From: Membranipora membranacea
Taxonomy: Eukaryota; Bryozoa; Gymnolaemata; Cheilostomatida; Membraniporidae
Direction of reading: 5' to 3'
Length of the DNA: 64,000 nucleotides
Assembly: GCA_914767715.1 (NCBI GenBank)
Contig: OU612073.1
Location: 2,170,001-2,234,000 of the forward strand
A model generated the notes under the pieces. That model made no database searches, had not been told where the DNA came from, and was given only the letters and a program-made list of their open reading frames with translations. Shown here one piece after another: positions 1-61,529 of this stretch. The translations under genes and the position numbers were made by a program. The first letter of the stretch is position 1. Each line of letters begins with the position of its first letter.

Positions 1-3000
1 TTGCTTCCATGAAGAATCTAATTCCTCCACAGGTGTATCTACCTGTACAGTGACTCTGCGATCAGCACTGCTGTGTACTACACGGCTTAAAGTGTTACCA
101 TGGTGTACCATAGCACCGTTACGAGCTGTTCTGATACGGAGACCGGGGTCAGTGAAGGGGGTCAGATATACACAGGTTAGCAGGTAGTATGCGTACGAGG
201 GAGGTGATAGGCCAAGAAAGTTTATATCCACTCTAAGTTGTAGAAGCTTATTGTCAGTAGGAATAAGGTCCAGGGCATCAGTGGAGAAGTAAGGGATGAT
301 GAATGTATTCCTTAGTGATTTATGAACTGGACCACACAAGAGATGGAAAGCCTTAAGCAGTGGCAAAGCCACCTCATATGGAAAGTTTGTTTGACAGAAC
401 AAGTTCAATAGAACAGCCTCATCAACAACTCCACTCTGCAACAGACGATCAACAAGTTTTGTGTATCTCTTTTTTGAGATCATCTCATTTCCCACAGATA
501 TAATGCTGGGTTGGGCTGCCAGTCTAGAATCCCACCGATCTCTAAATCTGTGATGAAACAGGAGAGCGATTGCGTCGGTGACGGCAGTAAGTCTATGGAA
601 AACATATCCCCTCAGACTATCCTCATGTTCAAACCACAGAACTCGACCAACATTGTGCATATAACGGAGCACAGTAAGATTTGCATCTCCTGGAAACATT
701 TTTGTGACTTCGGTGAGAAGAATGAAGGGCACATCACTCATCTGATCAAAGAAGAGAAGAAGCAACTCCCAAAGTTTTGGGATTATTGTGAAGAAGGGTT
801 CAGCTCTGATCTGTAGGGTCTGCAGTATCTGGAGGATAACCTCCTTACTGTTATCACTGCTATCTAACTCAAATATATTCTGTGAAGGAAAGATTTCTGA
901 TGAAGATGAAAAGAGGGCAATACTACAGAACTCAGAGGGACCTTTAGTAAATCTCTTCTCTTCCTCTATCATATCCCTGATTAGAGTAGTCAGAGTACGT
1001 AGCAGCTCTTTCTTTCTGGTTTCAAAGCTAGACACATCAGAGAATTTGTCTTTATGGGTGAGGACAAGAAGGGGATGGCCTAGAAGAGGACATGACACAT
1101 ATAGATGTGACATGTAGTCCAGGACTAGTATCCTCACCGCTTTTTTTGGGCCACCTGATGACAACAACTCCTCAAATTGCTCCATATTGACAACAACGAC
1201 TGGAATATAATTACTTCGTATTACCATATGATAGGAAATATGGTAAATACGGTCACCTCCAAAATCAAATACTTTCAACTGTGACTCTCCAACTGTGATC
1301 TCATCCATTTTGAAAACCTCAGTAGTGTCATCCTCAATTCCTTCTCTGTTACGATATGTCAGACTTCTTTCCTTTGTTTTCAAACTATTAATGAGACTAG
1401 TTTTACCTGCCATTCTGTTACCGATCACTGCTGCAGATACTATAGGGAGCCTTACACCACCGTGCTGTTTGAGATCTGTGTAGTATTTTCTTATAGCCTG
1501 CAGGCCCTGCTCACAGACTGCATAGGGAGGAGATGTCAGAGCTACACAGTCATCACAGTCCAGCTCCTCTAGAGCAGGTAGAAGAAGAAGACGAGAGTCT
1601 AATGATTGGAGTTTTCTGTTACCCCAGAGGTTCAGTGTCTTGAGCTTCTTCAGTTGTATAATGACTGGTGGGAGAGATGTGAAGCTATTACCTCCTATAT
1701 TTATGGTCTCCAGGTTCGAGAGATTTGACAACCTGAAATAATAATTGTATGAGCTCTAAGAATTTAGATAAAATACAGACGTCTATTCTCAATATCAGTC
1801 TACAGCTCTTTTGGCACCATTGCCTGAAATAATTGTAAAGCATCAAAGGGCAGATGATAGGGTTGCTCAAGTATCACAAATATAGACATGACATAAATTT
1901 AATTCAACACTGTGTTAATTGCATCTTGCATCATTGGGTGATTATATCTGGTAGGTCGTAACTTGTCTCCCTCCGCTCAATATCTCAACCCATCCCAACA
2001 ACTCCTCTCCAATGAGTGAATTTATGATCAATTTGTATTTATAATGGCTATGTGCGGCTTCAGTACGTTTGTGTACAAATCCCAAAATAATCATTCGTGG
2101 CCGACATCAATGAATTTTTTTTTAAAGTTGGTATAATCGCACATAGGCAACTTAAAGTAGACTGCCCTGTTCATATTTTATTATTTTATTATGTGTGATA
2201 GTTTGGCAACTTTTTGAATAGGCAAAAATTGACATCTTAGGTCAGATTTGCAGCCTCTTTGTGTTTTTGGGAAATTCTCACAATTCCTCGAAAGAGGTTT
2301 GTCTGAAGAGAATCAAATTGTCTTTGAAAGGGTGAAAGAAAACCTCATGGCCAACATAGTCTCGCTTCTCAAGTCTTATATGGGCTCATTTAATGAGACA
2401 GCAAGATGGCGCTGATGGCTACTACCTCCACTACTATCGACATCCTCAACATGGAAGCTCTACACCTAATTTTATCATCCTACCAAAAGCTTCATAGGCG
2501 TACCAGGGCAAAAGGTTCTTTTACAGATGCGATTTCCACCATGTTGAAAATGATCAGATGTTTATCAGCTGTTCTCAGCTCATCTCTACATTTTAGGTAT
2601 GCAGTTGACTCTGCAGGCATTTTCTATCTACTTTGCTTGTTGAGAGTTGAGGGACTTCAAATGAAATTGAACCGAAACATTTTTATTATGGGAACTCAAC
2701 TCTTTAGGAGAAAAATCTGAATTAAATCTCATGTAAGAGCAAGATGGCTCTGAATGTCGCCAACCAATGCTTTGAAAATATACAGCGAAGAGGCAAGATA
2801 TTGGTTTCAGAGAAAAAACTTCCGCATTTTCCAAAAAGCCGGATTTGATGACGACAGTTAAAAAACTATGGTAAACACGTCAAACATCACTACTGTATCA
2901 TATGTATATTTTGGGTCTACATTATTTGAAAATGTTGCTTGTAGTATAGACAAAACGGAAAATATTTTTTTACTTAATATTTGCTCCTAAAACGTACAAA

Positions 3001-6000
3001 ATATATTTAAAGACATCGAGAATTCGTCTTCATGGTGTGAAATCCTAAAATTATTAGTTGTCTTCTTCTTGTACAGAAAAAACCAATCTTTAAACTTAAC
3101 TATATCATGATCATTCTTAAAGGACAACTGTCGTATTCCTATTGGCTGAGGGATGGGAGCTTTCACCATTCCAGTCAGTTGCATGTTAATGCACTGATCT
3201 TTCTGAATTTGGGTAACTTGAAATTTGAGGATGGCTTTAAAAGACCAGCGGAAACATACATACTTATATCAGTCACATACAGAATAGACACATATACCTG
3301 GTACTTATTATCAGTATATCGAATATCTATATAATTAATAAATGTGATGATGGTGTTTAAAAAAACCTGTTGGAAAAATTTATATATATATATAATATAG
3401 ATAAAATGATATATATATATATATATATATTTCTATCAGTCATAATATACAGAACACACACACCTACCTGGTACTTATCTCAGTGAGCCCACAGTTGTGC
3501 AGACTCAGCTTAGTCAGCTCAGTCAGCTCATACAGACCATCAGGTACAGATCTGAGTGCTGGGTTAATACTGAGGTCCAGGGTCTGTAACTTAGTCAGCT
3601 GTGATATCCTGTATTATATATAATATGAGTCAATTATAATTACTTGTGCTGGAGGATTAATATTATACAGCAAGATATTTCTCAAACAATATATTAAATT
3701 TTCTTCATTTCGCATGAATATGATCAAAGTATATCATAATATCTCATATTAAATCCGAATATCTATATAATTAATAAATATAGAATTATTCTCTGGCTAC
3801 ATGAGTGCAAAGATGAATTTACGCTACTGATATCAGTCATAATATACAGAACACACACACATACCTGGTACTTATCTTAGTGAGCCCACAGTCAGACAGA
3901 TACAGCCCAGTCAGCTGAGTCAGCTCACACAGACCATAAGGTACAGATCTGAGTACTGGGTTATAACTGAGGTCCAGGTACTGTAACTTAATCAGCTGTG
4001 ATATCCTGTATTATATATAATATGAGTCAGATATAATTACTTGTGCTGGAGGATTAATATTATACAGCAAGATATTTCTCAAACAATATATTAAATTTTC
4101 TTCATTTCCCATGAATATGATCAAAGTATATCATAATATCTCATATTAAATCTGAATATCTATATAATTAATAAATATAGAATTATTTTCCTGCTACATG
4201 AGAACAAAGATGAATTTACGCTACTGATATCAGTCACATACAGAATATGCACACATACCTGGTACTGATATCAGTGAGACAACAGTTATACAGACTCAGC
4301 TCAGTCAGCTCAGTCAGATCATAAACAATGTCAGGTACAGATCTGAGTGGGTTATTACTGAGGTCCAGGATCTGTAGCTTAGTCAGCTGTGATCTCCTGT
4401 ATTATATACAATATGAGTGAGAAATATTAACTTGTGCTGGAGGATTTATGTTATCATACATTTTCAAATGATAAATCCAATTTTCCTCATTCCACATAAA
4501 CATCATCAAACTATATCATAAATCTCATATTGAATCCGAATATCTATATAATTAATAAATAGAGAATTATTCTCTGGCTACATGAGTGCAAAGATGAGAT
4601 TGTACAGCTCATGTTGTTTAAAATTTTATATATTAGTACATATAGAACATGGCCAAGTTCAATACACAAGTTTGAATACTTTAATTACTAAATTCCTTGA
4701 TGGTATGCAGTAAAGTTTTTTGTTAAGTTCCAATATTAAATCTAATCATATATTTTCAACTTGCCTATGTATGTTATTTGTGGTGTATACTGGCCACCAA
4801 TAATAAAAATGGGCGATGCAAGAGTAGCCGGTGTCACATAGAAGGCTGCGGATAGATTGTTTCATGTAAGATTTCTCATTTTTAATTCCCATCAAAAGAA
4901 TGGAACAAAACGACATCAAATAAGACTTAACTCAAGCTTGCTGTTGGATAAGAATATTTTGCTAATGCTTTAGTAAGTGTGAGTAAGCGGGCTGTGAGAC
5001 AAGGATAGAGATAATAGGAGCCTCGCCCGGGTCATATCACTGATAAATAACTCAGAAATATAGCATAATAGTATCATGTGTACTCTACTTACTTCTGCCA
5101 TTCAAATGTGCCCTGCCTGAGAGAGCCTTCATCAATATCCTTCAGTCTGAGGTATAGGAGATGAGGAGCTATAACTGGTAACCAGGAGGGGAAACTCTTC
5201 AGACCAGAGATACAGAGATGAGTGATAGAGTTATCTCCCTTCTCTAACTCTATCTCCTCCCATGTCATGTCTCTGTAGTCTGCGAGCCATAATTTAGGTA
5301 TCCTCTCTATCTCCTCCTCTCCTGAGTGTCTGTACCAGACTCTGTACTTCCCTATAATGTGATTATATTATAGATAAATATAATAAGGCATTAAAGATCA
5401 TAAATATTATAATTATATTGATCTTTGTGTACTCATAATACTTATGTGGGAATGTAAGATAACAGTTAGATAAATTGTTGTCAACCATACTATAGAATTT
5501 AGAATGAAATACAGGTACAGGTTGGTCGGTGTGGATTTAGTTGTCCGATCTTAGGTGCAAAATATGTTACATTTGAGGAGCAGTCGAGTTGATAAAACAT
5601 ACCAAACAACCTGTGAGGATAGGAATGCAACAACATTATGAGTTGTCTGACCTTACATGCCAATGCCTATTGCTTATAAAAACCGTCAGCAGGGAGAATT
5701 ATCCTTGCTTTTAGCTATTGCAACCATTTCTGTTTCCTAACATTAGGAAAAGGTCCCCTCATTTAAGAGATTGAAATATTGTCATGAAAGCGGAACAGTT
5801 CTGAGCTATTTTCAGTTACTGAAGAGGTTCACTGCTAAACAGGATTAATGATGCCCTTTGCTTACAACAATGAGTAAGATAATTCCCTCTGTAAACAGGA
5901 AATACAGTCATACCATCATTATCAGTGTTATCCCCTCTCTCATCAGCAGAGTTATCCCCTCTCTCATCATCAGAGTTATCCCCACTCTCACCGAAATTTG

Positions 6001-6892
6001 ATTCGGAGTTATCTACAATCTCAGCTGGTATGTTGACCTCCTCCTGGTATATCTCTTCAGTGATGTCATTTCCACTACAAGTTACACAGTCTCCCTGATC
6101 TGATAGAAATACATCTGTGTTAGCTGCTGAATTTATGCATCACAAATCATGAGTGTAATATTACAGTTTGTTTTTAGTTTGACAAGGTTAATCAACTCCG
6201 CCTCCCCCGTGGGTTTCATCATAGACAATGATAGTGAAGAAATTTGACGATTGATATGAGTCTCAGCAAGTTTTGCGCTGAGAAATATGTCCTGTAAATA
6301 ATGATCAACCACGCATCTCTGTATAAAGGCAAACTGCTAATGGAAATACCCATCCGGGGCCAACTGGCCATCCTTTTCACCTTGTATCAATTTCAGCATG
6401 TCACCATAACAAAGCCATCTGGTTGCAAATATTGTAGCCGGATGGCCTAGCAGCAATTTGTATTACAAACCCATCCGCATGGCTGTTTGGCATCTGCTGG
6501 TTGCCCAATACCAACTAGAAAGGGCATTCATCAGCCTACTGATGCCGTATACCCATCCGTATCTGTCTTTATCCCAGTAAACTATTCTGGATGGTTTCCC
6601 CCTATAAAAACTGCTGGTTGCCAAGTTGTCATCATGCAGCTGACAAATAGACCAGTTGGTACTTTGGAAACCATTTGATTTCCAATATAGCTAAAGAAAC
6701 TTTCACTCAGCAATTTCCAAGGCTAATTGGTGCAAAATAACCTACCGAAATGGCATAAGATAAATTAGATTGTCAAACAATTTCATCCTTACCGTCAGAA
6801 ACTGACTGTCCATCACCTTTAGCTGAGGGAGGAGGATTATTTCTCTTTGAAGAATGCTCAGCTTTTCTGATACATGATAGGTAACTTCCCAT
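1..6892 (-). CDS. LRR-Roc-COR protein, copy A (partial, 3' end off the window)
   Basis: Paralogue of the gene at 46607-57794. Exons in transcript order: 6793-6892, 5914-6099, 5093-5351, 4259-4396, 3865-4005, 3468-3608, then 1732 to beyond base 1. That gives 899 codons with no stop. The start is the ATG at 6892, giving MGSYLSC, a myristoylation-type N-terminus in which Cys4 of copy B is Tyr. An acidic linker with repeated ERGDN, three 46-47-residue LRR exons and further LRRs follow. The Roc GTPase has P-loop GNRMAGKTS, DFGGD and THKD motifs, and COR comes after it. ROCO proteins use Roc-COR as a nucleotide-controlled dimerisation switch (established for the family). Whether copy A also ends in a caspase cannot be seen. 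An acceptor-like AG lies just upstream of the ATG, so a 5' exon is possible. Confidence 0.85.
1733..3467 (-). other. Intron, copy A
   Basis: The intron between the last LRR exon and the Roc-COR exon holds no gene I can support. It is closely matched by 52202-53953. It has an (AT)n stretch at 3379-3430 and the relic LRR exon end near 3294. Short open frames at 2406-2720 and 3107-3334 are not supported by splice sites or motifs. Confidence 0.7.
3468..4396 (-). repeat. Tandem LRR exon array, copy A (3 units)
   Basis: Three exons (3468-3608, 3865-4005, 4259-4396) repeat with their introns at a period of about 395 bp. Each starts and ends in phase 2 and encodes two LRRs of the form ISQLTKLQ.L.L..NP..RSV, then CELTELT.L.L..C.LTEIST. 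The introns between them are nearly identical to each other. A relic of another unit, only its donor end (tacctggtacttat), sits near 3294 and also exists in copy B at about 53790. Confidence 0.9.
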
Positions 6893-8863: not shown

Positions 8864-8910
8864 TTCTACTATCTAAGGGTACTAAATTGAGGTACATGTT
8901 ATATTATCCA
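8864..8910. repeat. 47-bp repeat, copy A unit 2
   Basis: Second occurrence of the motif at 7115-7161, in the same orientation and 1749 bp away. It lies about 2 kb upstream of the start codon of the copy A gene. Confidence 0.85.
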
Positions 8911-27913: not shown

Positions 27914-27918
27914 GTACA
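27914..27918. other. Target site duplication, right
   Basis: GTACA, identical to 19637-19641, immediately outside the 5' LTR. Confidence 0.95.
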
Positions 27919-28934: not shown

Positions 28935-29323
28935 TTGAAACTCCCCGATAACATTGTGGTCTTTATTGTAATTTATGTAGAGTTGTGGGGTCCCTCAGAG
29001 TAGTTGGACAACTCCGAAAGGCAATATCTCATTTTCAGCACGGAACCAAACTCTCTGACGGAACAAACTAGTATACAGCTTGTAAAATCACATGTAAATT
29101 GTGTACATGATTATTTGGGGCCAAATTTGTTTACATTGGATTTGTTTCTCATTGGTTATACATGAATGTGATCAGCCAATTGGTCAATTTGTTTACATCA
29201 CATGCCTGACATGGCGCATAAAACAAATAGCTTGGATTTTCAAATCCATTCCCTTGGTTCTTGGTGTCAAGAAAACCTTAAGTTACATCTACTGTGTAAA
29301 CCTACTGGGTGGCAAAAAACATC
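28935..29323. other. LINE 5' remnant and upstream flank of the coiled-coil gene
   Basis: The left part probably belongs to the LINE 5' end, since the endonuclease frame stays open to about 28990. The right part is the 5' flank of the plus-strand gene starting at 29324. No TATA box or other core promoter is convincing. Confidence 0.4.
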
Positions 29324-32718: not shown

Positions 32719-32818
32719 CTCTCATCCTCTGCATGATGATGTCACAGTGAACAGGATGTGCACTACAAGAAACAAACACTTCCTGTTCACTGTGACATCA
32801 CAATGCAGAGAATGAGAG
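32719..32818. repeat. Imperfect 42-bp inverted repeat
   Basis: Arms 32719-32760 and 32777-32818 share gatgtcacagtgaacagga in opposite orientation, with about four mismatches and a 16-base loop. It is intronic. It is probably a decayed foldback element; a small-RNA hairpin is possible but unsupported. Confidence 0.8.
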
Positions 32819-35800: not shown

Positions 35801-36577
35801 TATAACAATTGCGTAAAATGTGACTATCATCAACGATAAAATGTTGAGCTAAATTAAAATACTCATGTCAACAAAACAGTCAACCTGATAAGTTATTGTG
35901 GCTCTGTGAGTAACACAGTAGAGATGATGAGGGAGTTCAAAAGAATTTCAGAGAGCTTAATGTAATCAAGCGATACAGGGTGCTGGCAGCTTAAGCCCAA
36001 ACATTATCTAAGATTTGTGTCTCTTATCTTCTCAGTCAAAGCTCCATCTCGTATCTCAAACATTAATAATAAAACATGTAGCCAAAAAGGAAATAGCAGG
36101 GCAGGTGAACGATGTCATGCACAGATATAAAAGTTATATTTTGTACACCTTACTACTACTACTTTGAGCCTGTAATCCTCGCATTGAGAAGATTATGATC
36201 CAGGACACTTGTACTAAATGGACACAGTTTTCTTTTCCTAGAATGACACAAGAAAAGTTGAAGTTGTATCTGGATTTCGGTGTCATTCAATAATGAAGAG
36301 TGTTTTTTACCCTTACAGATAAATTGATAAAATTTCATAAGAACAACTTCCACATCTGTTTTTAATTTCTCATACAGGTGGACGGTGCCGTAGATGCTAT
36401 GGACAGTGAGAGAAGTGAACTCCAATGTCAGATAGAATCATACAAAGCACAGCTCTCTGCTGCCATGGAACTTATTATAGAGGAGGAGAAGATTAACACA
36501 CAGGAGTTAGAACAGAAACTTCTGTCTCTCGGAGCTACAGTAAGAATATAATTATTGATGTTAAATCATATTTTACT

Positions 36578-36645
36578 ATTTGAAGTTGCTACCCCTCTAT
36601 CGAACAGTAGACTAGTAGACCAGTAGAGGGAGAGCAACTTCAAAT
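36578..36645. repeat. Short 22-bp inverted repeat
   Basis: ATTTGAAGTTGCT at 36578 is mirrored by agcaacttcaaat ending at 36645. There are two mismatches in 22 bases and a 24-base loop. It is in an intron of the coiled-coil gene. Confidence 0.7.
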
Positions 36646-42600: not shown

Positions 42601-43511
42601 TCCAGCTTTCTGGATATCCTTGAGCACCTGTTGTTAGTGGTTAGTGGAAATTTCCTGAGTCAACCCCGTCATAATTAATCTCAACTTGAATCAAACGGGA
42701 ATACTTTAATGTAATTAACTAGTATCAGGTCAGTTGGGGTAATTTACTAGCGGACAGGATTGTTACTGTCTTGTACCTGACTACAATCTAATACTTACCA
42801 TGTTATACATTTTGTAGATCGCCACACAGCAAGCCATGCAAAAAGCAACAGAGACAAGGCTTATGGAGGGAAATAATGACACTCTTATTGTAAGTCGCAG
42901 TGATCTATACCAGTTCTACTTATGCATCATACTGTAGAGGAGTACATATAGCTGACGCTTAGGGCTGCTTCTTTTGGAAATCTATTTGTAAGTTAGCACT
43001 AAATATTACTAGCTGAGGTTCGAATCTATGATAAATAATGAATTGAAGTGAGTGACTACATGTAAGCGTACCTTAAACTTAGCTTAACTAAGCATATAGG
43101 GTAAGTTATAATATGTGTGCTGTAGGTAACTAAGCATATGGTTATAACAATTAAATCATGCGATGATCTTTTATATCTCGTGACTTGTTACTGGCAGGCC
43201 ACAGAAACACTAGAAGATACCAATCGTTATTTAAGGATAGATTTTCTGCTCTCACCTCGGAGTTAAGCTCAGCTAAGAGGCATCATCTCGATCTGGAGTG
43301 GAAAAATCTAGATAAAAATCAACAGCTGACTCTGGAGAGAAAGAAGATGGACAATACAACGGCTAAAGCTAGAAATATTATCAGGGTAAGTGAGAGCTGT
43401 AAGTAATATGACTTACAATGAGAATCTTCACAGGTAACTGTGTAAGTTCTAATACAAAGATCCTCTGCATATTCTTATAACTCTGAGCTCCCTTTGAAGG
43501 GCTAATCACGG

Positions 43512-46606: not shown

Positions 46607-49600
46607 TCACTTTGCCACTTTCCACTTCAAAAACAACCGTTCGCTTTTCTTTTCTCCTCCAGTGATCTCTTCTAGTTCGCCTGGATAAACAAATAAAGTA
46701 CATATGTTGAGGAAAGAAGATCAAACAACCACTGGGTTTTGAAAAGTCATGATTGAAATTAACATTTGTGTTACTTCTTCTTGTGGGTCAGAAGGAAAAG
46801 AAAAATTCCAAAACTGCTGGCAGATTTAAATAAATTAAGCACAATCAGGACCACGGGCTAAGAATCTTGGAATCCTGAAGGGCCAGTGCATCAGAGTAAG
46901 GGTGCAGACCCCTGAGGAACGCCAGCCGAACAAAAACTCACAACTTGATCAAGGTTAAATCTCGAGATTGATTTGAGACCAGCGTTAGCATTCTACCCTA
47001 GAGTTCCTCTCCTGGGATCTGGAGCTATAATTGGCACAGCAAGGTTCAAGTAAATGGCTAGTTCCAGAATGCACTGCACATTGGGACAACAGTGAAAAAC
47101 CTTCCAATGAGATAATCACGTTAAACTCAGACATACTAGGAAGCCAGGAGAGATAAGTCAGTCTTGACTTTCTGAGATCAGTAGTGAGACTATCTGGATG
47201 TTCTCCTTGTTTTCTCATATCTATTCCAGGCTGTAAGAAGAGCATCCTGGTTCCCATAGTACAAGTTGTCCTCGGCATCTGAGCTACGTATGCCTCTTCC
47301 TTTCTCTTAGGAGGGAGAGATGTCTTTAGCTGGATAGTTGCCTTTACAGTGAACTTATTCACTGCTTCCTGTATCTGTTAAACAACATGTCCAAATGCCT
47401 TATCAAACTATCTAGTTGAAAGTTTGAAAGTGTGATCTACGTTTCAGAGTTTCAATGATGTTAAACGCAACAGTTTTAACTTACACATACCATTCATTTG
47501 TCTCAATTTTCAAATAAGTATCAAAATTTGGCAATGTTATTGAAAAATGAAATTCATATGGAATCTGTCAAGATGGTTTAGTTCTAAAGGTAGAAACTTA
47601 TGCACAAAAAAATTACTTTAAACAATGTCATGTACTTACTATGTTTCCCAGCATCTGAAGGTGATATCGATGAGCATACTTGTAGAAAGTGATAATTAAA
47701 CCTCTTATGAAGGGCGATCCATTCTGATCTCGAGGAGCAACAAAACCTGAAACACACCAATCAATATAAAGATATGAATAGCCTATCGCTGCTTATCAAG
47801 CTGGTAGTGAACAGGGAATTTTTTTGGTTTTAATCAGATAGTCTCTGTAGGGTTATTTATGTGAAGCTACTTTTACTCACCGTCAAAGCTAGACTGTATG
47901 ATGAAGAGATCAGCTAGTAAGCCATCTTCTGGTTTGTTATCCATATAGTATGTCCTTATACGTGAGTTGTCTCCTGATGCTTGACCTAATTCTGTACTGA
48001 CTTCTGTGTGCACTGCTGGGTCTGGTGCTATCACATCATCGAGCATTATATCCCTGTTACCTATAAATATGACAACAGTAACATTTTATTTCACTTCAAT
48101 TGATAACTGAAGGAGTACCTCTAGGTTTGATCCAGAGACATATTTTGCTATCAGTGTAAAATGCAGTTCATATATAAATCCATATATCCATTATATAACC
48201 AATGACCTATCCTATCTATCATACAATTATTGCATCAATGAGAGGCAGTTCATTTATTGCATCAAGTAAGGTAAACATGATTTCAATCACAACAAAATAA
48301 TTATGGTTTTTGCTGATGAATGGATGTCCCAATAGAAATATACATACATTACAGTCATCCTTACTTTGTGAAATAGATCAAGTATGATCAAATTTGCCTG
48401 TTTTCGTGCCGCCAGCAGTTGAATGGAAACAGCCACAATGTGGTCAAATAGGATCAAACCTGATCTAATTGGGGATGGTAAGACTTAGATATGAATATGC
48501 TGTGCTCTGATGGTAGTGGTCATTTGTATTTAGTAGTAAAATTTACTAACCTCCAGCGCAGGCTTGTATAATGATGAGTTTTGGTTTTCCTTTCATAGCC
48601 GGGAAATTTCTGGCTGAGATTAACTGATAGATTTCAGTCAGCCTGATGTGTTCGTTATCTGACCCTTGGACACTCCCTTCAGCACCATGACTAGTTATAA
48701 CCAGTACAAACATTCCTAGATCTTTGTATACTGAGCAGCCTGTCTGGTCTACCAGCTGAGTTTCTCTGTGAATATCTGTCACTATATCCTTTAGAAAATC
48801 AAATGTTCATTGTCACTGGGCAGCGATGGAGACCGGCCTCACTGACAGAACGCTGTCAGGGACATTAATATAAACTAACTCACTGATGATTGAATAAATC
48901 ACAAAAGGAGGCTGCTGCCTAGGCTAAATAGACAATGGAAAATTGTTTACCTTTGACCTGTAGTTTTTATACTCTCCATTCACAACAAACCCAAAGTTCT
49001 CCAACATATTCTTCATATTCTCATGATCTTTGTCAGCACCCTTTCTCCGGTCTAACTCTCCCTCTAGGTTTGTGTACTCAAACTCATTAGACAGTATGAG
49101 AGCTCTACCTCTTGTCTTAGTCATCTTATATAACATCTAACATAGGATGATGTAATATGTTATGTTCACATCATGGATGATCGCGAAAAATGAATACTGT
49201 CATCTCAAAGAAAATATTTGTACTACAAAACTTGAAGGTTTGTGTGGCAGCAGGGAGGGTGGGAGGCGACAGGTGACGTAAACGTTACACTGTGTCTTAA
49301 AATAAACAATAAATAAATCAATATGCTCTCCCCTATTAAGGAAAATTACCAGTACGTACACATTCATAGTGCTCAGAGCATCATTTGAATCAGTTGTTTG
49401 CATCACATTGTGAATCAAATAATGAATAGTCAACGATGGGAGTTGTCCACTTTTTGAACAAGTATACACTACTCCTAAATATGGATGCTTGTCGTTACCT
49501 CGACCAGTTATGTGTAGGAGTAATATTTCATGCATCTCTAATAGATCTGAGCAAATATGACCAAGAGGGTAGATGAAAAATATGTTCATATAGAGCTACT

Positions 49601-52600
49601 CAAAATTAGGTATATTGGACTAACTTACCATTTCCTGTGAGATAGTTGACTGTAAGTCACTGATGACCAGCGGTAGGTCGATTATTGGAGGTTGTGATTT
49701 CATCAACTCTATGATCTCATCCACAGCTTCCTCATTATTCTGTGTATCATTTCTGACATTCTCTCCACCAGCTGCTACTGCTCTGTGTGTCTCTTCTGGT
49801 TGTACAGCTGTGGGGCATTCATAAGGAAATGTGAGAAAAATTAGCAAAATTAACAATGATATATAACTTAGGATAATAATGATATTATACTCTTGTTACA
49901 GAAGGTAAATTTAGATTCCCTGTACAGACCCAGACCAGCTGATGTATCTGGAGGCTGGAGAGTGGAGATATAGGTGCTGACTTTATCTTTTTCTGCTTCT
50001 GTCAGCGACAAACCTGCCGAAAAAAAGAATTGATAATGTTATATACCCAAACAAATGAGTGATTCACATTCTACAACTGAGAATATTTCTATAAAAACAG
50101 ATGAAAACTTTCTACTTGCATGGCAGAAAGTAGAAGTAAAAGCAAAAACATGTACAAGATACAAGATTTATGCTTGGTCTCCTCACACTTACAAGGAAAT
50201 CTTAGAGGCCTCGGTACTTGGAGTTGTCCACCGTTAGTTTGGTCGTTACAGCAGGGCACAGGGTCAGCGTTAGAGAGGAGTGTGCTCAGCTGATGAGAGA
50301 GAGGTACATCTTTGTTAGTGTGTCTCAGAGGAGAATACCAATCTGGATCTACTTCTGTCTCAGGCTCACGCTCTTCTAGATACAGACAGTGAGCACAGTA
50401 GAACTCACAGATAGGTCGAGCTGCAACCCAGATAGACAGCAGGTGGTTGATAAGTGAGTCTGTGATGCTGATCAGCTGCTTCCATGAGGAATCTAACTCC
50501 TCCACAGGTGTATCCACCTGAACAGTGACTCTGCGATCAGACCTGCTGTGTCTTACACTGCTAACAGTGTTACCATGATGTACCCTAGCTTCACTCCGAG
50601 CTGTTTTGATACCATTCCCGGAGTCAGTGAAGGGGGACAGATATACACATGTTAGCAGGTAGTATGCGTATGAGGGAGGGGATAGACCAAGAAACTTGAT
50701 ATCTACTTGAAGTTGTAGAAGTTTGTTGTCCGTAGGAATAGGGTCCAGTGAGTCAATGGAGAAGTAAGGGATGATGAATGTATTTCTTGGTATTTTGTGA
50801 ATTGGACCACATAAGAGATGGAATGCCTTGAGTAATGGCAACGCCACCTCATATGGAAAGTTATGTTGTGAATACAAACTCGATAGAACAGCCTCATCAA
50901 CAACACCACTTTTCAACAGCTGACCAACAAGTTCCTCATACTTCACTTTAGGAATCATTCCTACAGCTCTGATGTTTGGTTGGGCTGCCAGTCTAGACTC
51001 CCATCGATCTCTCAATCTGTGATGAAACAAAAGGGCGATGGCATCAGTGACGGCAGTAAGTCTGTGGAAAACATATCCCCTCAGACTATCCTCATGTTCA
51101 AACCACAGAATTCTACCAACATTGTGCATGTAGCGGAGCACCGTCAGATTTGCGTCACCTGGGAATTTCTTTGTGACTTCAGTGAGAAAAATGAAGGGCA
51201 CATCACTGTTCTGATCAAAGAAGAGAAGCAGTAACTCCCAAAGTTTTGGGATTATTGTGAAGAACGGTTCAGTTCTGATCTGAAGGGTCTGCAATATCTG
51301 AAGAATAATCTCCTTACTGTTATCACTGCTATCTAACTCAAATATATTCTGTGGAGGAAAGATTTCTGATGATGACGAGAAGAGGGCAACACTACAGAAC
51401 TCAGAGGGACCTTTAGTAAATCCCTTCTCCTCCTCTATCATATCCCTGATTAGAGAAGTCAGAGTACCTAGCAGCTCAATCTTTCTGGTGTCAAAAACAG
51501 AAACATCAGAGAATTTGTCTTTATGGGTGAGGACAAGAAGAGGAGGGCCTAGACGAGGACATGACACATATAAATGTGACATGTAGTCCAGGACCAGTAT
51601 CCTCACTGCTTCTTTCGGGCCACCTGATGACAACAACTCCTCAAACTGCTCCATATTGACAACAATGACTGGAATGTAATTACTTCGTATTACCATATGA
51701 TAGGAAATATGGTAAATACGGTCACCTCCAAAATCAAAAACTTTCAACTGTGACTCTCCAACTGTGATCTCAGCCATTCTGAAAACCTCAGTAGTGTCAT
51801 CATCAATCCCTTCTCTGTTACGATATGTGAGACTTCTTTCCTTTGTTTTCAAACTATTAATGAGACTTGTTTTACCTGCCATTCTGTTACCGATCACTGC
51901 TGCAGATACTATAGGGAGCTTTACACCACCGTGCTGTTTGAGATCTGTGTAGTATTTTCTTATAGCCTGCAGGCCCTGACTACAGACTGCATAAGGAGGA
52001 GATGTCAGAGCTTCACAGTCATCACAGACCAGCTCCTCTAGAGCAGGTAGAAGAAGAAGACGAGAGTCTAATGAATGGAGTTTTGTGTTACCGTAGAGGT
52101 ACAATGCCTTGAGCTTCTTCAGTTGTATAATAACTGGTGGGAGAGATTTGAAGTTATTACCTCCTATATCTATGGTCTCCAGGTTCGAGAGATTTGACAA
52201 CCTGAAATAATAATTGTATGAGCTATAAGAATTTAGATAAAATACAGACGTCTATTCTCAATATCAGTCTACAGCTCTTTTGGCACCATTGCCTGAAATA
52301 ACTGTAAAGCATCAAAGGGCATGATAGTGTTGCTCAAGTATCACAAATATAGACATGACATAAATTTAATTCAACACTGTGTTAATTGCATCATGCATCA
52401 TTGGGTGATTATATCTGGTAGGTCGTAACTTGTCTCCCTCCGCTCAATATCTCACCCCATCCCAACAACTCCTCACCAAAGAGTGAAATTATGATTAATT
52501 TGTATTTATAATGGCTATGTGCGGCTTCAGTACGTTTGTGTACAAATCCCAAAATAATCATTCGTGGCCGACATCAATGGTTTTTTTTTAAAAGTTGGTG

Positions 52601-55600
52601 TAATCGCACATAGGCAACTTAAAGTTGACTGCCCTGTTCATATTTTATTATTTTATTATGTGTGATAGTTTGGCAACTTTTTGAATAGGCAAAAATCATA
52701 GGTCAGATTCGCAGCCTCTTTGTGTTTTTGGGAAATTCACACAATTCCTCGAAAGAGGATTGTCTGAAGAAAATCATATTGTCTTTGAAAGGGTGAAAGA
52801 AAACCTCATGGCCAACATAGTCTCGCTTCTCAAGTCTTATATGGGCTCATTTAATGAGACAGCAAGATGGCGCTGATGGCTACTACCTCCACTACTATCG
52901 ACTTCCTCAACATGGAAGCTCTACAACTAATTTTATCATCCTACCAAAAGCTTCATAGGCGTACCAGGGCAAAAGGTTCTTTTACAGATGCGATTTCCAC
53001 CATGTTGAAAATGATCAGATGTTAATCAGCTGTTCTCAGCTCATCTCTACATTTTAGGTATGCAGTTGACTCTGCAGGCATTTTCTATCGACTTTGCTTG
53101 TTGACAGTTGAGGGACTTCATGAAATTGAACCCAAACGTTTTTTATTTTGGGAACTCAACTCTTTAGGAAAAAAATCTGAATTAAATCTCATGTAAGAGC
53201 AAGATGGCTCTGAATGTCGCCAACCAATGCTTTGAATATATACAGTGAAGAGGCAAAAAATTCGTTTCAGAAAAAAGACTTCCACATTTTCCAAAAAGCC
53301 GGATTTGATGACGACAATTAAAAAACTATGGTAAACACGTCAAACATCACTACTTTATCATATGTATATTTTGGGTCTACATTATTTGAAAATGTTACTT
53401 GTAGTATAGACAAATCCGAAAATAATTTTTCACTTAATATTTGCTCCTGAAACGTACAAAATATATTTAAAGACATCGAGAATTCGTCTTCATCGTGTGA
53501 AATCCTTAAATTTTGGAAAACAGAAATTTGCTTTACGTGTGTACTGTGTACTGAAGTGGAAAATTTTCTCGAAAAAGCGAATTTTTAAGAGGGAAAATAA
53601 TTATTAGTTGTCTTCTTCTTGTACAGGAATCCTATTGGCTGAGGGATGGGAGCTTTCACCATTCCAGTCAGTTGCATGTTAATGCACTGATCTTCCTGAA
53701 TTTGGGTAACTTGAAATTTGAGGATGGCGTTTAAAAGACTAATGGAAACATACATACTTATATCAGTCATATACAGAATACACACATATACCTGGTACTT
53801 ATATCAGTATATCGAATATCTATATAATTAATAAATATGATGATGGTGTTTAAAAAACCTGTTGGAAATATATATATATATATTATATAGATAAAATGAT
53901 ATATATATATATATATTTCTATCAGTCATAATATACAGAACACACACACATACCTGGTACTTATCTCAGTGAGCCCACAGTTGTTCAGACTCAGCTTAGT
54001 CAGCTCAGTCAGCTCACAGAGACCATCAGATACAGATCTGAGTGCTGGGTTATTACTGAGGTACAGGGTCTGTAGCTTAGTCAGCTGTGATATCCTGTAT
54101 TATAAATAATATGAGTCAGATATAATTAATTGTGCTGGAGGATTAATATTATACAGCAAGATATTTCTCAAACAATATATTAAATTTTCTTCATTTCGCA
54201 TGAATATGATCAAAGTATATCATAATATCTCATATTAAATCTGAATATCTATATAATTAATAAATATAGAATTATTCTCCTGCTACATGAGTGCAAAGAT
54301 GAACTTACGCTACTGATATCAGTCACATACAGAATACACACACATACCTGGTACTTATCTCAGTGAGCCCACAACTATACAGATACAGCCCAGTCAGCTC
54401 AGTCAGCTCACACAGACCATCAGTTACAGATCTGAGTGCTGGGTTATTGCTGAGGTCCAGGGTCTGTAACTTAGTCAGCTGTGATATCCTGTATATATAT
54501 AATATGAGTCAGATATAATTACTTGTGCTGGAGGATTAATATTATACAGAAAGATATTTCTCAAACAATATATTAAATTTTCTTCATTTCGCATGAATAT
54601 GATCAAAGTATATCATAATATCTCATATTAAATCTGAATATCTATATAATTAATAAATATAGAATTATTCTCCTGCTACATGAGTGCAAAGATTAACTTA
54701 CGATACTGATATCAGTCACATACAGAATACACACACATACCTGGTACTTATCTCAGTGAGCCCACAACTAGACAGACGCAGCTCAGTCAGCTCAGTCAGC
54801 TCACACAGACCATCGGGTACAGATCTGAGTGCTGGGTTATCAGTGAGGTCCAGGTACTGTAACTTAGTCAGCTGTGATATCCTGTATTATAAATAATATG
54901 AGTCAGATATAATTAATTGTGCTGGAGGATTAATATTATACAGCAAGATATTTCTCAAACAATATATTAAATTTTCTTCATTTTGCATGAATATGATCAA
55001 AGTATATCATAATATCTCATATTAAATCTGAATATCTATATAATTAATAAATATAGAATTATTCTCCTGCTACATGAGTGCAAAGATGAACTTACGCTAC
55101 TGATATCAGTCACATACAGAATTATACACACACATACCTGGTACTTATCTCAGTGAGCCAACAACTAGACAGATACAGCCCAGTCAGCTCAGTCAGCTCA
55201 CACAGACCATCAGGTACAGATCTGAGTACTGGGTTATAACGGAGGTACAGGTCCTGTAGCTTAGTCAGCTGTGATATCCTGTGTTATATATAATATGAGT
55301 CAGAAACAGTATCTTGTGCTGGAGGATTTATGTGATCATACATTTTTAAATGATAAATCTAATTTTCCTCATTCCACATAAACATCACCAAACTATATCA
55401 TAAATCTCATATTAAATCCGATTATCTATATAATGAATAAATAGAGAATTATTCTCTGGCTACATGAGTGCAAAGATGAGATTGTACAGCACATGTTGTT
55501 TAAAATTTTATATATTAGTACATATAGAACATGGCCAAGTTCAATACACAAGTTTAAATACATTAATTACTAAATTCCTTGATGGTATGCAGTAAAGTTT

Positions 55601-57794
55601 TTTGTTAAGTTCCAATATTAAATCTAATCATATATTTTCAATTTGCCTATGTATGTTATTTGTGGTGTATACTGGCCACCAATAATAAAAATGGGCGATG
55701 CAAGAGTAGCCGGTGTCACATAGAAGGCTGCGGATAGATTGTTTCATGTAAGGTTTTCTCATTTTTAATTCCCATCAAAAGAATGGAACAAAACGACATC
55801 AAATAAGACTTAATTCAAGCTTGCTGTTGGATAAGAATATTTTGCTAATGGTTAAGTAAGTGTGAGTAAGCGGGCTGTGAGACAAGGATAGAGATAATAG
55901 GAGCCTCGCCCGGGTCATATCACTGATAAATAACTCAGAAATATAGCATAATAGTATCATGTGTACTCTACTTACTTCTGCCATTCAAATGTGCCCTGCC
56001 GGAGAGAGCCTTCATCAATATCCTCCAGTTTGAGCTTTAGGAGATGAGGAGCTATATCAGGTAACCAGGAGGGGATACTCTTCAGACCACTGATACAGAG
56101 ATGAGTGATAGAGTTATCTCCCTTCTCTAACTCTATCTCATCCCGTGTCATGTATCTGTAGTCTGTGTACCCTAAGAGAGGTATCCTCTCTATCTCCTCC
56201 TCTCCTGAGTGTCTGTACCAGACTCTGTACTTCTCTATAATGTGATTATATTATAGATAAATATAATAAGGCATTAAAGATCATAAATATTATAATTATA
56301 TTGATCTTTGTGTACTCATAATACTTATATTGGAATGTAAGATAACAGTTAGATAAATTGTTGTCAACAACACTATAGGATTTAGAATGAAATACAGGTA
56401 CAGGTTGGTCGGTGTGGTTTTAGTTGTCTGATCTTAGGTGCAGAATATGTTACATTTGAGGAGCAGTCCATTTGATAAAACACACCAAACAACCTGTCAG
56501 AATAGGAATGCAACAAAATTATGAGTTGTCTGACCTTACACGCCAATGTCTATTGCTTATAAAAACCGTCAGCAGGGAGAATTATCCTTGCTTCAAGCTG
56601 TTGCAACAGTTTCTGTTTCCTAACATTAGGATAAGGTCCCTCATTTCAGAGATTGAAATATTGTCATGAAAGCGGAACAGTTCTGAGCTATTTTCAGTTA
56701 CTGAAGAGGTTCACTGCTATAACTGTAAACAGGATTAATGATGCCCTTTGCTTACAACAATGAGTAAGATAATTCCCTCTGTAAACAGGAAATACATTCA
56801 TACCATCATTATCAGTGTTATCCCCTCTCTCATCAGCAGAGTTATCCCCTCTCTCATCATCAAAGTTATCCCCACTCTCACCAAAATTTGATTCGGAGTT
56901 ATCTACAATCTCAGCTGGTATGTTGACCTCCTCCTGGTATATCTCTTCAGTGATGTCATTTCCACCACAAGTTACACAGTCTCCCTGATCTGATAGAAAT
57001 ACATCTGTGTTAGCTGCTGAATTTATGCATCACAAATCATGAGTGTAATATTACAGTTTGTTTTTAGTTTGACAAGGTTAATCAACTCCGCCTCCCCCGT
57101 GGGTTTCATCATAGACAATGATATTGAAGAAATTTGACGATTGATATGAGTCTCAGCAAGTTTTGCGCTGAAAAATATGTCCTGTAAATAATGATCAACC
57201 ACGCATCTCTGTATAAAGGCAAACTGCTAATGGAAATACCCATCCGGGGCCAACTGGCCATCCTTTTCACCTTGTATCAATTTCAGCATGTCACCATAAC
57301 AAAGCCATCTGGTTGCAAATATTGTAGCCGGATGGCCTAGCAGCAATTTGTATTATGAACCCATCCGCATGGCTGTTTGGCAACTGCTGGTTGCCCAATA
57401 CCAACTAGAAAGGGCATTCATCAGCCTACTGATGCCGTATACCCATCCGTATCTGTCTTTATCCCAGTAAACTATTCTGGATGGTTTCCCCCTATAAAAA
57501 CCCATCTGGCAACTGCTGGTTGCCAAGTTGTCATCATGCAGCTGACAAATAGACCGGTTTGTACTTTGGAAACCATTTGATTTCCAATATAGCTAAAGAA
57601 ACTTTCACTCAGCAATTTCCAAGGCTAATTGGTGCAAAATAACCTACTGAAATGGCAAAAGATAAATTAGATTGTCAAACAATTTCATCCTTACCGTCAG
57701 AAACTGACTGTCCATCACCTTTAGCTGAGGGAGGAGGATCATTTCTCTTTGAAGAAGGCTCAGCTTTTCTGATACATGATAGGCAACTTCCCAT
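46607..57794 (-). CDS. Acylated LRR-Roc-COR-caspase protein (complete, copy B)
   Basis: Sixteen exons, 1467 codons, all phases joining: 57695-57794, 56804-56989, 55976-56234, 55138-55278, 54741-54881, 54348-54488, 53954-54094, 50232-52201, 49891-50013, 49629-49807, 48951-49136, 48551-48788, 47881-48060, 47640-47746, 47137-47374, 46607-46680. Domains: MGSCLSC N-terminus (myristoylation plus palmitoylation type), acidic repeat linker to about residue 95, LRRs about 180-430, Roc about 465-640, COR about 670-820, linker, caspase about 1128-1400. Expected behaviour is a membrane-tethered sensor. LRRs would sense a ligand or partner, the Roc-COR switch would control dimerisation, and the caspase would be the effector that cleaves after Asp. 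Family knowledge covers each module; the combination and mechanism are inference. The weakest junctions are the donor at 50232 (G|GTGGAC) and the last splice (47137 to 46680). A 5' non-coding exon may exist. Confidence 0.85.
47137..49136 (-). other. Caspase domain exons, copy B
   Basis: Exons 48951-49136 to 47137-47374 encode a peptidase C14 domain. The p20 part has RALILSNEFEY, then DRRKGADKD (S1-pocket Arg and G-x-D pattern), TSHG with catalytic His1223, and QACAGG with catalytic Cys1266, in place of the usual QACRG. The His-Cys spacing of 43 matches caspases. The p10 part has GFVAPRDQNGSPFI, equivalent to the G-SWR-GSWFI block with its substrate-binding Arg, and ends with QMPRTTCTMGTRMLFLQP. 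Several Asp residues in the p20-p10 linker (DD, PD, ED) could be self-cleavage sites. All catalytic residues are kept. Confidence 0.88.
50232..52201 (-). other. Roc-COR exon, copy B
   Basis: A single 1970-bp exon. Leading LRR residues are followed by the Roc GTPase: P-loop GNRMAGKTS at about residues 474-482, switch II DFGGD at 526-530, and THKD (NKxD equivalent) at 595-598. COR is recognised by the VLRYMHNVGRILWFEHED block and the region after it. Reading past the proposed donor, the frame stays open to 50089 and ends in a hydrophobic tail (LYMFLLLLLLSAM). Retained intron sequence would therefore give a protein without a caspase. Confidence 0.9.
52202..53953 (-). other. Intron, copy B
   Basis: Counterpart of 1733-3467. 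It holds an (AT)n stretch at about 53868-53915 and the relic LRR exon end near 53790. It differs from copy A by small indels, including an extra stretch around 53510-53600. No gene seen. Confidence 0.7.
53954..55278 (-). repeat. Tandem LRR exon array, copy B (4 units)
   Basis: Four 141-bp exons (55138-55278, 54741-54881, 54348-54488, 53954-54094), each phase 2 to 2, with near-identical introns and a period of about 394 bp. Each encodes two LRRs. Differences between units cluster at the variable positions of the beta-strand motif, such as LYLRYN, LDLTDN, LDLSNN and LYLSNN. Because each unit is a multiple of three in matching phase, units can be gained or lost without breaking the frame. Confidence 0.92.
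57695..57794 (-). other. N-terminal acylation exon, copy B
   Basis: First coding exon. It reads MGSCLSCIRKAEPSSKRN, matching the N-myristoyltransferase pattern M-G-x-x-x-S, with Cys4 and Cys7 placed for palmitoylation and a following basic patch. This predicts peripheral membrane attachment. It ends GACG|GTAAGG in phase 1. An AG acceptor at 57804-57805 sits ten bases upstream in an open frame, so an upstream exon could in principle make this ATG internal. Confidence 0.7.
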
Positions 57795-58086
57795 ACCTGT
57801 TTCCTATAATAGAATAAGTGAAAACTTCTGCATCCAAATGTCGTCAGACAGCTTACGTATACAATAGGGACCCTGACATGTTCTAATCAATCTGACAGAA
57901 AAGTCATTGAATTCTATAACTCCACTGACCGTAAAAAGTAAAATGTTTTTGTCATCTTGTTTTGCTTCCTGACCAATTTCGGTACATGGTTGAGTGTTCT
58001 TAATACAGTTTAAGAGTAACTGGGAGATGGAACAAAATATATATAACATTGTTTAAAACCCTATATGACAGGATGCAAACCATGCG

Positions 58087-58133
58087 TTCTACTATCTAAG
58101 GGTACTAAATTGAGGTACATGTTATATTATCCA
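58087..58133. repeat. 47-bp repeat, copy B unit 1
   Basis: Same motif as 7115-7161, about 290 bp upstream of the copy B start codon. Confidence 0.85.
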
Positions 58134-58514
58134 CCATCTGAGTTTTAAGACTGCAACCTCAGTGTCCGGAGAGAAGGAAAAGTGAGCTCAGTCTCACTAA
58201 TAGATGTAACGACCGAGAGTTTTGTTGCCAAAGATAGATTTTAAGAGGCGGGACTTTAGGCAGTTAGGTGGCAGTGCCAAAATAGTTTTATTGGGTATAA
58301 ATAACAGAGTGATGACATTTTGGAATTAACTAAGAAAATACGAAGTCAAGCCAGCTGTTAAATTATGTCATCAGCGTTTATAGTTGTGTTTGTCACTGGA
58401 ATCTCTATAACCTCCTGCTTTACCCATCTCCTGATTCACTTAACTCAAATATGATGATAATATAATAGGAGAGTGATCAGCGAACCGAACGCCTTCACAG
58501 TAAAATTTATCTTG

Positions 58515-58713
58515 ATCATCTGTTTACCCCCCTCGATAAATATACTGAAAAGCCATCAAGTTCCAAAGCTGTGCGAGAAGCAGACTCTCCCTCCAGAAAT
58601 TTTTAATCCCTCTATGAAAGACCACTGCCAATTTCCTATAACGGATTCGAACCCAGCTTGGCATAAATCTCCATCTGATTGCATGGCAGACACTAAGACC
58701 ACTACACCACGCT
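58515..58713 (-). mobile_element. tRNA-derived SINE, copy B
   Basis: B box GGTTCGAATCC at 58643-58653 and A box TGGTGTAGTGG at 58699-58709 on the minus strand, the duplicate of the SINE at 7540-7733. Adjacent sequence differs by only a few bases. Confidence 0.6.
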
Positions 58714-59836
58714 AGCTCTTTTGCTTAGCTAAGGTGTATTCCTGTATAATTGTACATTGTTTATGAAGCTATGGTGAGTGAGTTTAATTTAAGATACACT
58801 AAATTTCGCAACCTAGGCAACAATGCGAAAGGCGAATCCTTAATGCCGCGAAAACTAAATAGGGTAGTTGTCAAATAGTTTTGCCTGTGTTCCGCAGACA
58901 ATACTGTAGTCATAGATAGAAAGGTTAGGAGTTACTAACAAAGTCCTCCACTACTCTGATATTTGCATGAGGGTGTACAGGCTGTAAATAAATCTAAGAA
59001 GTTCCTTGTTTGGAATGAAAACTTTTCTCATTCTATCAGAATGAAACAGTTGCAGCGTCAGACCCTACCCTGGCCGAAAAACACAAGCTGTACCCTAAAA
59101 CAATTGGATCGAAATTGTTGATTAATCTGGAATTATTTCGACAGTAAGTCGATAAAAATAGATTTATGAGTAAATGGGTAAATGAGTTCGTAGATAGATA
59201 TTCTGAACCCTTAAATGGTCTAATAATTACATGAGATTACATGGTCTTTCATCATAAAAGAATGGTGTGTGGTTGCTAGCTAGAATTGAAGTAGAGATAA
59301 AACTACCATATGAAAAATAACATGCCAAACCACAGGACCTGCCATGCCAAAAGGCAGAGAAGCCACCTTCCATTTCAATAGGTACCTGTTGTATAGTTCT
59401 ATACCACTACACAATAAGGACCTCGCACCCCTAAATTGTTGTTGGTTTTAATTGGATTCAGTTTAGTTGACCGCATATGATAACTGTGCGAGTTTGAGAA
59501 TTGTTCTAGTATTTCAGGGCTATCAGTTTTTCAAAATTATTTTAATTTGAATAATTGCATGATATTACTGCACAGATTAAGGGTGTGAAGGTTCCCTGGC
59601 TCTTGGAGCATAAACTGAGCCTGAATTTAACCAACATGTCTTCTCCAAATCTTTGGTCTGTCTTCTGCAATACTTAATTGGCCCTCCCCTCCCTCTTTTA
59701 TCTTTTGTTTCAAACAAGATAAGGGGAGTGAGTTTGCATATATGTCAGGCGTCAGCGTTACCGCATATTCATCTCTGTTGCAAAAGGCTACCTGGGCGAG
59801 CGTAGGTAGACTGAGGATAATATTGTCTACATTTTT

Positions 59837-59883
59837 TTCTACTATCTAAGGGTACTAAATTGAGGTACATGTTATATTATCCA
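59837..59883. repeat. 47-bp repeat, copy B unit 2
   Basis: Same motif as 8864-8910, 1750 bp from unit 1. Spacing is kept between the two segmental copies. Confidence 0.85.
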
Positions 59884-61362
59884 TCATGGGGCAAACAGTA
59901 TGACTGATAAAGAAGAGATAACAACGTTACAACCTTCTTTATAGCACTCCTAAACATAGACAAACTTACTAAGGACTAATATCTCACCGTCTAGAATTAC
60001 TCTAGAATCAATGTCACCTATAAATGATTTTCAGACACAAATAGACCACTACACAGAGCAAGAGTTTAAATAGCTAAATTAAGGGTATAACATAAAGTGA
60101 CCCAAATCGAGCTGAACTAAAATCTAAGTGTTATTTCATCATCTAGGTAGGGTAATTGATGTAAGTGTTCTAATGGCCTGTTACCACTAGAACGTAGCCG
60201 TTAGACCTCCATGTAGCGACCAGTTTTGTTCAGTGAATTTTTGACCTGTTGTCTCCTGACCACTGCTACAGTTTTATGCCCGGTTGGCTATGTCACATCC
60301 AGACATGATTGTATCAGTCATTTACTTGCTCAAACTTACCTATTGGTATCAGTTCGCGACATCAATATGGCTTTGATATAGATATACATGCTGTTTCAAT
60401 CCTGGCTGAATGGATTTGTCACAAATATGATGAGTGGTTTGAATTGAACCCATCCACTTCTATGTTGCAAATCACCCTAAGACAGTTAATTCTAGCTAGA
60501 GCTCTAATATGCTATATAGTTTGAAGGTGACTTAATATTAGCTAGCACCAGTTTTCTGTAGCAAAGGTTGGTGTTCATATTATGTAAAGTATTGGGCGAA
60601 TGGAAGTTGGCCATAACTTTCACTTTTTGATTCTGCGTGTAAAGCCAGACTTTTCCTCCTGCAAAAACTTAACTTAACTTTGCTATGGTAGGCAACCACC
60701 GATTGCCCATTTAATAACTGGATCCCTATGTGGCAGGCAGCACAACCAGCCCTTAAAAGCGTTCGGGATGGCGATCGCGGCTGTAGGCGGTTGTTAAGGG
60801 GTGGATGGGAAGCTAGGAAACTCCGTTTTTTGCAATTTATTACTTTTTTAACTTTAACACCTGTTAACAGCACTTTTGCCTCATCTCACAGAGTTCTAAT
60901 CCAAGATCTGTGCATTACTAGCCTAAGCTCAGAAGAAAGGATTGCTCCAAGTCAATATTATTGTCTTTACTCAACAATTTTGCTAATTTTTCTGATTTAC
61001 CGCTGCATGTTACTCCTTGCTAATAACTCTCTGCTGCACCTCTCCTTACATTCTGACCATGAGTGATTCTCTCCAACACGAGGTAAATATAACTCCAATT
61101 GCTTCTGGGAAATTGAGGTTTTAATTTAGAAATCAAACTAATCAACTTGGATTGGACTGCGCAGACATTACTTACTTACTTACTTCAATCAATCAACGAC
61201 AGCAGGGAGAATGACAGTGACAGCTAGTGACAATCAAAACAAATGGTCTGCTCTGCTGGTGTTGACAGTATATATTAATAAATTGTAATGACAAATGACA
61301 ATATTTCCATGCCCTCTCTGTTTGACATATTAAGTGTGAAGACTTTGCACATCAACCATACG

Positions 61363-61529
61363 TACATACATACATACATACATACATACATACATACATA
61401 CATACATACATACATACATACATACATACATACATACATACATACATACATACATACATACATACATACATACATACATACATACATACATACATACATA
61501 CATACATACATACATACATACATACATAC
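61363..61529. repeat. (TACA)n microsatellite, copy B
   Basis: About 42 units, seven more than in copy A. Any open frame across it is an artefact of the repeat. Confidence 0.97.

Follow-up and report, generated by a model that had tools for sequence, protein, structure and literature searches.

A candidate ROCO-family receptor with a built-in caspase and a diversifying leucine-rich repeat face in the bryozoan Membranipora membranacea

Does a single gene of Membranipora membranacea join a leucine-rich repeat (LRR) sensor, a Roc-COR GTPase and a caspase in one protein, and what might such a protein do? The question is raised by a stretch of 64,000 nucleotides, hereafter the window (bases 2,170,001-2,234,000 of C9, chromosome 9 of this species), on the minus strand of which 16 exons (57794..46607), all with GT/AG borders, join in phase to give 1489 codons and a stop. 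The predicted product of 1489 amino acids begins with an acylation-type start, followed in order by LRRs, Roc, COR and a caspase. An earlier note made from the same DNA had seen these 16 in-phase exons, all of which are present, with a length of 1467 codons that is replaced here by 1489. We hold it probable that the gene encodes a ROCO-family receptor with a built-in caspase, in which Roc-COR would gate the caspase and the recognition face would be diversifying. A second family gene, copy A (1..6892, minus strand), is cut by the window edge; it contains counterparts of exons 1-5, exon 7 and most of exon 8, and the caspase exons that belong to it (locus L017) fall just beyond that edge.

Exon 1 (57695..57794; minus strand, as for all exons and domains that follow) encodes the start MGSCLSCIRK, in which Gly2 and Ser6, with cysteines nearby, form a putative N-myristoylation-type signal. 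Both residues are kept in copy A, and the start of P0049, a predicted protein of the bryozoan Watersipora subatra, is MGAKSSK. Exon 2 (56804..57016) is an acidic low-complexity linker, and exon 3 (55976..56234) is a pre-LRR module (RVWYRH[ST]GE..) in which 30 of the 72 residues aligned with P0049 are identical. Four LRR cassettes follow, the first of which (exon 4, 55138..55278) is 141 bp long, is entered in phase 2 and encodes 47 amino acids with two LRRs; the second (exon 5, 54741..54881), the third (exon 6, 54348..54488), which is without a counterpart in the copy A alignment, and the fourth (exon 7, 53954..54094) are arranged in tandem behind it. The last LRRs, Roc and COR share a single exon (exon 8, 50193..52201), with the Roc GTPase at 51259..51927 (residues 471-693; P-loop GNRMAGKTS at 51891-51865, DFGG and THKD) and COR at 50371..51258 (about residues 694-989, the end being estimated from the structure model).

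The end of exon 8, which had previously been placed at 50232, is moved to 50193, since the donor at 50192 scores higher and the ending that it restores is conserved. Ranked among GT sites on a hand-entered consensus table, donor 50192 (CTT/GTAAGT) lies at the 97th percentile, that at 50231 (ACG/GTGGAC) at the 78th. The restored ending is ..PRPLRFPC, and the pattern ..P-L-x-x-P-C is present in 40 of 43 single-exon relatives (three are without it), is followed by K, E or M in 37 of these 40, fitting the read-through of a GTAAG, GTGAG or GTATG donor, and is also found at the COR-caspase joint of the Watersipora proteins. Exons 9 (49891..50013, beginning CLSLTEAEKDKVSTYI..) and 10 (49629..49807) encode a linker, part of which is uncertain because the exon 9 donor at 49890, which sets the 3' border of that exon, is weak; this donor is not conserved in the paralogues, and several in-frame alternatives exist. 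The first part of the caspase p20, with the S1 residue Arg1180, is encoded by exon 11 (48951..49136), and exon 12 (48551..48788) continues p20 with the catalytic His1245 (SHG, 48689-48687) and Cys1288 (QACAG, 48560-48558). An Asp-rich p20/p10 linker and the start of p10 lie in exon 13 (47881..48060), p10 with the S1 residue Arg1356 in exon 14 (47640..47746), and the end of p10 with the beginning of the tail in exon 15 (47137..47374), while exon 16 (46607..46680) supplies the remaining tail and the stop. The C-terminal tail (end of exon 15 plus exon 16) is provisional and is absent from the Watersipora proteins. The splice sites from COR to the caspase are common to seven genes, namely that of the window and six paralogues, apart from the donor of exon 9 and, for L020, the exon 10 acceptor, which is unaligned.

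A Pfam search of the joined product matched Peptidase_C14 (100.4 bits), LRR and, with 30.2 bits against a cut-off of 27, Roc; COR was unmatched and is assigned by fold. The AF2 model of exon 8 is an LRR-Roc-COR structure (pLDDT 87.2, pTM 0.87) whose best fold matches are LRRK1, LRRK2 and the bacterial (C. tepidum) Roco, and COR sits directly after Roc, the arrangement by which ROCO proteins are recognised. The P-loop, DxxG and THxD positions are invariant in 51 aligned sequences. The same Pfam search gave no NACHT or NB-ARC match, the GTPase being Roc, and no CARD, DED or Death domain. Rfam gave no match, and no relative was found in scans of viral contig and genome contig collections. A homologue search with residues 450-1489 scored no relative, probably because the query words were too sparse, and a shorter region did find relatives.

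Catalytic His1245 and Cys1288 (SHG, QACxG) are kept in four of four caspase sequences, and Arg1180, Arg1356 and Gln1286 are likewise invariant in all four and line up with residues of the caspases matched in the PDB; these three presumably make up a basic S1 pocket for Asp. The receptor reading could hold with the caspase being no trigger of apoptosis but a dedicated processing protease, its substrate cytokine-like or pore-forming, which would suit the occurrence of caspases 2 and 1 among the PDB relatives and a phmmer ranking that does not part inflammatory from apoptotic types. A profile of the four caspase sequences, however, ranks CED-3 first, followed by caspases 3 and 9, and we regard this variant as unlikely.

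The receptor-like layout proposed in the earlier note gains support from diversifying change on the concave face of the LRRs. Between the two copies of the window, introns differ at 179 of 4149 sites compared with 52.5 of 513 nonsynonymous LRR sites (p = 2e-7). In pairwise comparisons among the seven 47-residue cassettes of the two copies, the eight concave positions differ in 118 of 168 cases and the other 38 positions in 93 of 792, and in matched cassettes of copies B and A the corresponding figures are 16/24 for concave positions and 14/113 elsewhere (p = 1.4e-7). The same register recurs in Watersipora, where the cassette pattern was run on nine proteins, four of which, including P0049, gave none, and among the five that did, P0051 and P0053 are caspase-bearing; 12 cassettes of three proteins differ at 366/528 concave and 222/2574 other comparisons, and five cassettes of two other proteins at 52/80 and 28/390. 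For exon 8 of eight C9 genes, that of the window among them, dN/dS, taken from Nei-Gojobori pairwise counts in which pairs are not independent, is 2.75 at 12 concave positions, 1.32 at all LRR sites, 0.27 in Roc and 0.26 in COR, the whole-LRR values of 1.3-1.6 being only modestly above 1. For the caspase-half exons (10-15), the ratio is 0.33-0.35 against the four paralogues that are more distant; against two very close ones, with few changes to count, it is 0.41 and 0.62. Judged at the level of sequence, Roc, COR and the caspase are held by purifying selection, and the predicted concave face is diversifying, with hypervariable positions. The p10 exons are more variable than the catalytic exon 12, so protease activity might be lost in some copies.

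The same gene could be pictured as encoding a GTP-regulated protease that serves development or physiology (e.g., colony tissue regression) and whose LRR differences would reflect relaxed constraint after duplication; duplicated gene families do drift, human MFHAS1 is reported to have differentiation and signalling roles (PMC6320773), and MFHAS1 is the name given by NCBI to most Watersipora relatives. Relaxation, however, would not focus change on concave positions while Roc, COR and the other LRR sites stay conserved, and this concentration argues against relaxed constraint as the main cause of the LRR change. Dozens of copies, many of them clustered, would moreover be unusual for a developmental enzyme, and we consider such a role quite unlikely. 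The ROCO-family receptor with a built-in caspase remains the preferred reading.

Both ROCO-caspase genes are carried by a tandem segmental duplication (1-14793 / 50477-64000), with upstream flanks 97.5% identical and Roc-COR about 90%. Such flanks might be produced if the assembler had set two haplotypes in tandem, the divergence of the copies then being allelic, but at least 14 loci of C9, the two of the window included, are 87% or more identical to the Roc-COR exon, COR dS between the copies is 0.45 though the flanks differ by about 2.5%, and 17 haplotypic duplications were already removed from the assembly according to its description (PMC10290214), and a haplotype artefact is rejected as very improbable. 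The COR dS of 0.45 beside nearly identical flanks suggests gene conversion or recombination within the C9 array.

The search was extended to the 339.3-Mb genome in 18 contigs, in which the Roc-COR exon matches 67 stretches, merged to at least 65 loci (best 66 of 288 candidates scored). PF00656 is listed within 5 kb downstream on the same strand in 42 of the 65 (at 0.7-2.2 kb) and at 5.4 and 9.8 kb in two more, and it is listed in 0/65 within 5 kb upstream or on the opposite strand. The downstream DNA of the 21 loci without a listed PF00656 was examined, 12 at about 10 kb each and nine at 3.5 kb each. Ten of the 12 contain collinear caspase exons (tblastn), and two, L022 and L023, a divergent caspase; the halves of the L022 caspase score 15 bits (below the Pfam cut-off) and 24 bits, and that of L023 scores 59 bits with two frames joined. 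Seven of the nine contain a caspase, L045 has a caspase fragment only, beside a Roc-COR exon with stops, and L041, with a truncated Roc-COR exon, has no caspase in the 3.5 kb downstream. Altogether a caspase lies downstream on the same strand in 63 of the 65 loci, 61 within 5 kb and two more within 10 kb.

A Pfam Roc search added at least 31 further large-frame Roc loci, in 11 of which a caspase is listed no more than 8 kb downstream, with the other 20 counted neither way. An apparent stop in exon 13 of L017-L019 was traced to misalignment, the exons being open in their own frame; aligned with its L019 counterpart, exon 14 of L018 is a single base shorter and is possibly shifted. A sub-family at 18.9-28.1 Mb of C3 (L022, L023 and L042-L044) has a caspase strongly diverged from that of the window; the SHG and QAC motifs remain in L022, L023 and L044, and in L042 and L043 SHG is seen and the second caspase half matches the L023 type at 94-97%. 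PF00656 itself matches at least 145 places in the genome (best 140 of 515 candidates scored), some of which are pieces of one gene, with dense clusters at C1 33.6-37.1 Mb, C5 3.4-7.6 Mb and C10 22-24 Mb, and many are as yet unlinked to a Roc-COR exon. The predicted caspase repertoire of this genome is very large.

Outside Membranipora, a search with the Roc-COR region restricted to long proteins returned 17, six of them predicted proteins of Watersipora subatra. Of these six, P0049, P0051 and P0053 carry PF00656 above the cut-off, one breaks off within the caspase domain and two show no caspase; for the 11 proteins from other organisms, no PF00656 is listed. A separate search gave three further Watersipora proteins, also without a listed PF00656. 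Over both searches, three of nine Watersipora proteins have the caspase, one has a piece and five have none in their predicted form. P0049, P0051 and P0053, themselves predicted proteins, share the LRR-Roc-COR-caspase order of the window gene, and their Roc and COR align throughout with those of the window at 32-43% identity; against the Pfam Roc cut-off of 27 bits, P0049 (22.8 bits) and P0051 (26.2 bits) fall below, and P0053 is the only one of the three fused proteins to pass. Identity to snail and amphioxus MFHAS1-like proteins is 22-24%. P0063 and P0064, MFHAS1-like proteins of a snail and of amphioxus, are listed with PF00531 and PF00619 (Death and CARD), which may be the counterpart, by way of adaptors, of the built-in caspase.

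The single gene of the earlier note is thus upheld by paralogues of the same genome and by predicted Watersipora proteins. That exon joining had wrongly fused two neighbouring genes, LRR-Roc-COR and caspase, is a suspicion invited by an in-frame ATG at 49136 that starts the caspase exon, a gene model predicted from DNA, the weak exon 9 donor and the Watersipora predictions without a caspase, yet COR is separated from the following exon by 179 bases in which, as in introns 9-11, none of the three polyA signals scanned occurs, whereas intron 12, inside the caspase, holds three matches to such signals, and separate genes are ruled out, with next to no probability left to them, by the 63 of 65 same-strand caspase neighbours, with none upstream or opposite, by the Watersipora predictions that join both parts and by splice sites shared among paralogues on either side of the linker.

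Among known proteins, the human ROCO protein MFHAS1 (MASL1) has the same LRR-Roc-COR order, and under NCBI naming most relatives in Watersipora appear as MFHAS1 homolog or MFHAS1-like, a putative kinship taken from these names and the 22-24% identity. MASL1 reportedly lacks a clear effector domain (PMC3995007), whereas the window protein carries a caspase after COR, and one review restricts MFHAS1 genes to deuterostomes (PMC4104024). In brown algae, LRR-ROCO candidate immune receptors form an enlarged family with shuffled tandem phase-2 LRR exons in variable number and four positively selected concave LRR sites, and the account of them reports no ROCO domain combination beyond LRR-ROC-COR (PMC11378527). 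The window family similarly has tandem phase-2 LRR exons and, from the pairwise counts given above, fast-changing concave sites; however, the bryozoan cassettes are 141 bp long with two LRRs and the algal ones 72 bp with one, and the caspase is attached in the bryozoan. ROCO proteins joined to cell-death or immune domains are also reported from Trichoplax, with CARD, Death or TIR (PMC4104024), and from Aplysia, with TIR (PMC9334734), but their domains are of the adaptor type, whereas here the protease itself is in the chain.

The predicted caspase is similar to CED-3 and to caspases 9, 3 and 2 in p20 and p10, in the catalytic His and Cys and in the S1 arginines; it differs in that Pfam finds no CARD/DED prodomain, the position of which is occupied by LRR-Roc-COR. 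Animal NLRs and the Apaf-1/CED-4 apoptosome combine a sensor (LRR or other), a nucleotide switch and a caspase output. The window protein would work by the same sensor-switch-caspase logic, but with Roc-COR in the place of NACHT or NB-ARC and with the caspase covalently attached.

A working model of the receptor with a built-in caspase can be outlined from these likenesses. Acylation would anchor the protein at the membrane, and the concave face of the stacked 47-residue LRR cassettes may bind a fast-evolving ligand, microbial or allogeneic. Ligand binding would open the LRR clamp on Roc-COR, and the GTPase cycle would alter the oligomeric state, so that the nucleotide state might set how the caspase domains meet. 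Brought together or released, these could cleave themselves in the Asp-rich p20/p10 linker and then cleave downstream substrates, with cell death or an output resembling inflammation as the result. Initiator caspases generally require proximity. In the C. tepidum Roco, by contrast, GTP binding is reported to go with the LRR swinging off Roc-COR and with the dimer giving way to the monomer (PMC11052575), so control could run in either direction, with GTP or GDP as the active state. A wider proposal, which we put forward tentatively, is that cheilostome bryozoans possess a large hypervariable receptor system, each protein being sensor, GTP switch and executioner at once, in which exon-shuffled LRR cassettes in tandem arrays (a fixed framework with a varying ligand face) would report pathogens or non-self, the latter as allorecognition in encrusting colonies, to the attached caspase without apoptosome or inflammasome adaptors.

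A literature search of limited depth found no description of a Roc-COR/caspase fusion, and the ROCO-caspase architecture is, as far as we have seen, undescribed. One possible exception is a paper on Dysidea NLRs in which a figure legend lists both CASc and COR among the domains drawn (PMC12909245). Since the Watersipora proteins are public under automatic MFHAS1-type names, the architecture itself is on record. The ROCO family includes LRRK2, and how Roc-COR passes on a signal is an open question, with MFHAS1 described as lacking a clear effector domain; a natural Roc-COR protein ending in a caspase could make Roc-COR switching directly readable. Within a phylum of colonial animals, the family further supplies candidate genes for recognition and cell death, and it would be a second case, beside the brown algae, in which ROCO genes have diversified at the ligand face of the LRRs, here with an identifiable protease module.

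Other elements of the window lie around the two receptor copies. Between them, several coiled-coil-like frames are found on the plus strand at about 31874-43403 and are perhaps one gene; six of these frames were given to Pfam, with two weak matches below the cut-off and none for the other four. A Ty3/gypsy-type frame (21618-25862, minus strand) is flanked by two direct repeats of 687 bases (19642-20328 / 27229-27915) that are 100% identical and resemble the LTRs of a recently inserted element. This element has a LINE-type reverse transcriptase (18610-19338) on one side and an endonuclease frame (27927-28994) on the other, a placement that would fit insertion into a LINE. At 61278-61604 and 10303-10693, in matching places of the duplication, there are long runs of microsatellite sequence (read as YVCM/HTYI).
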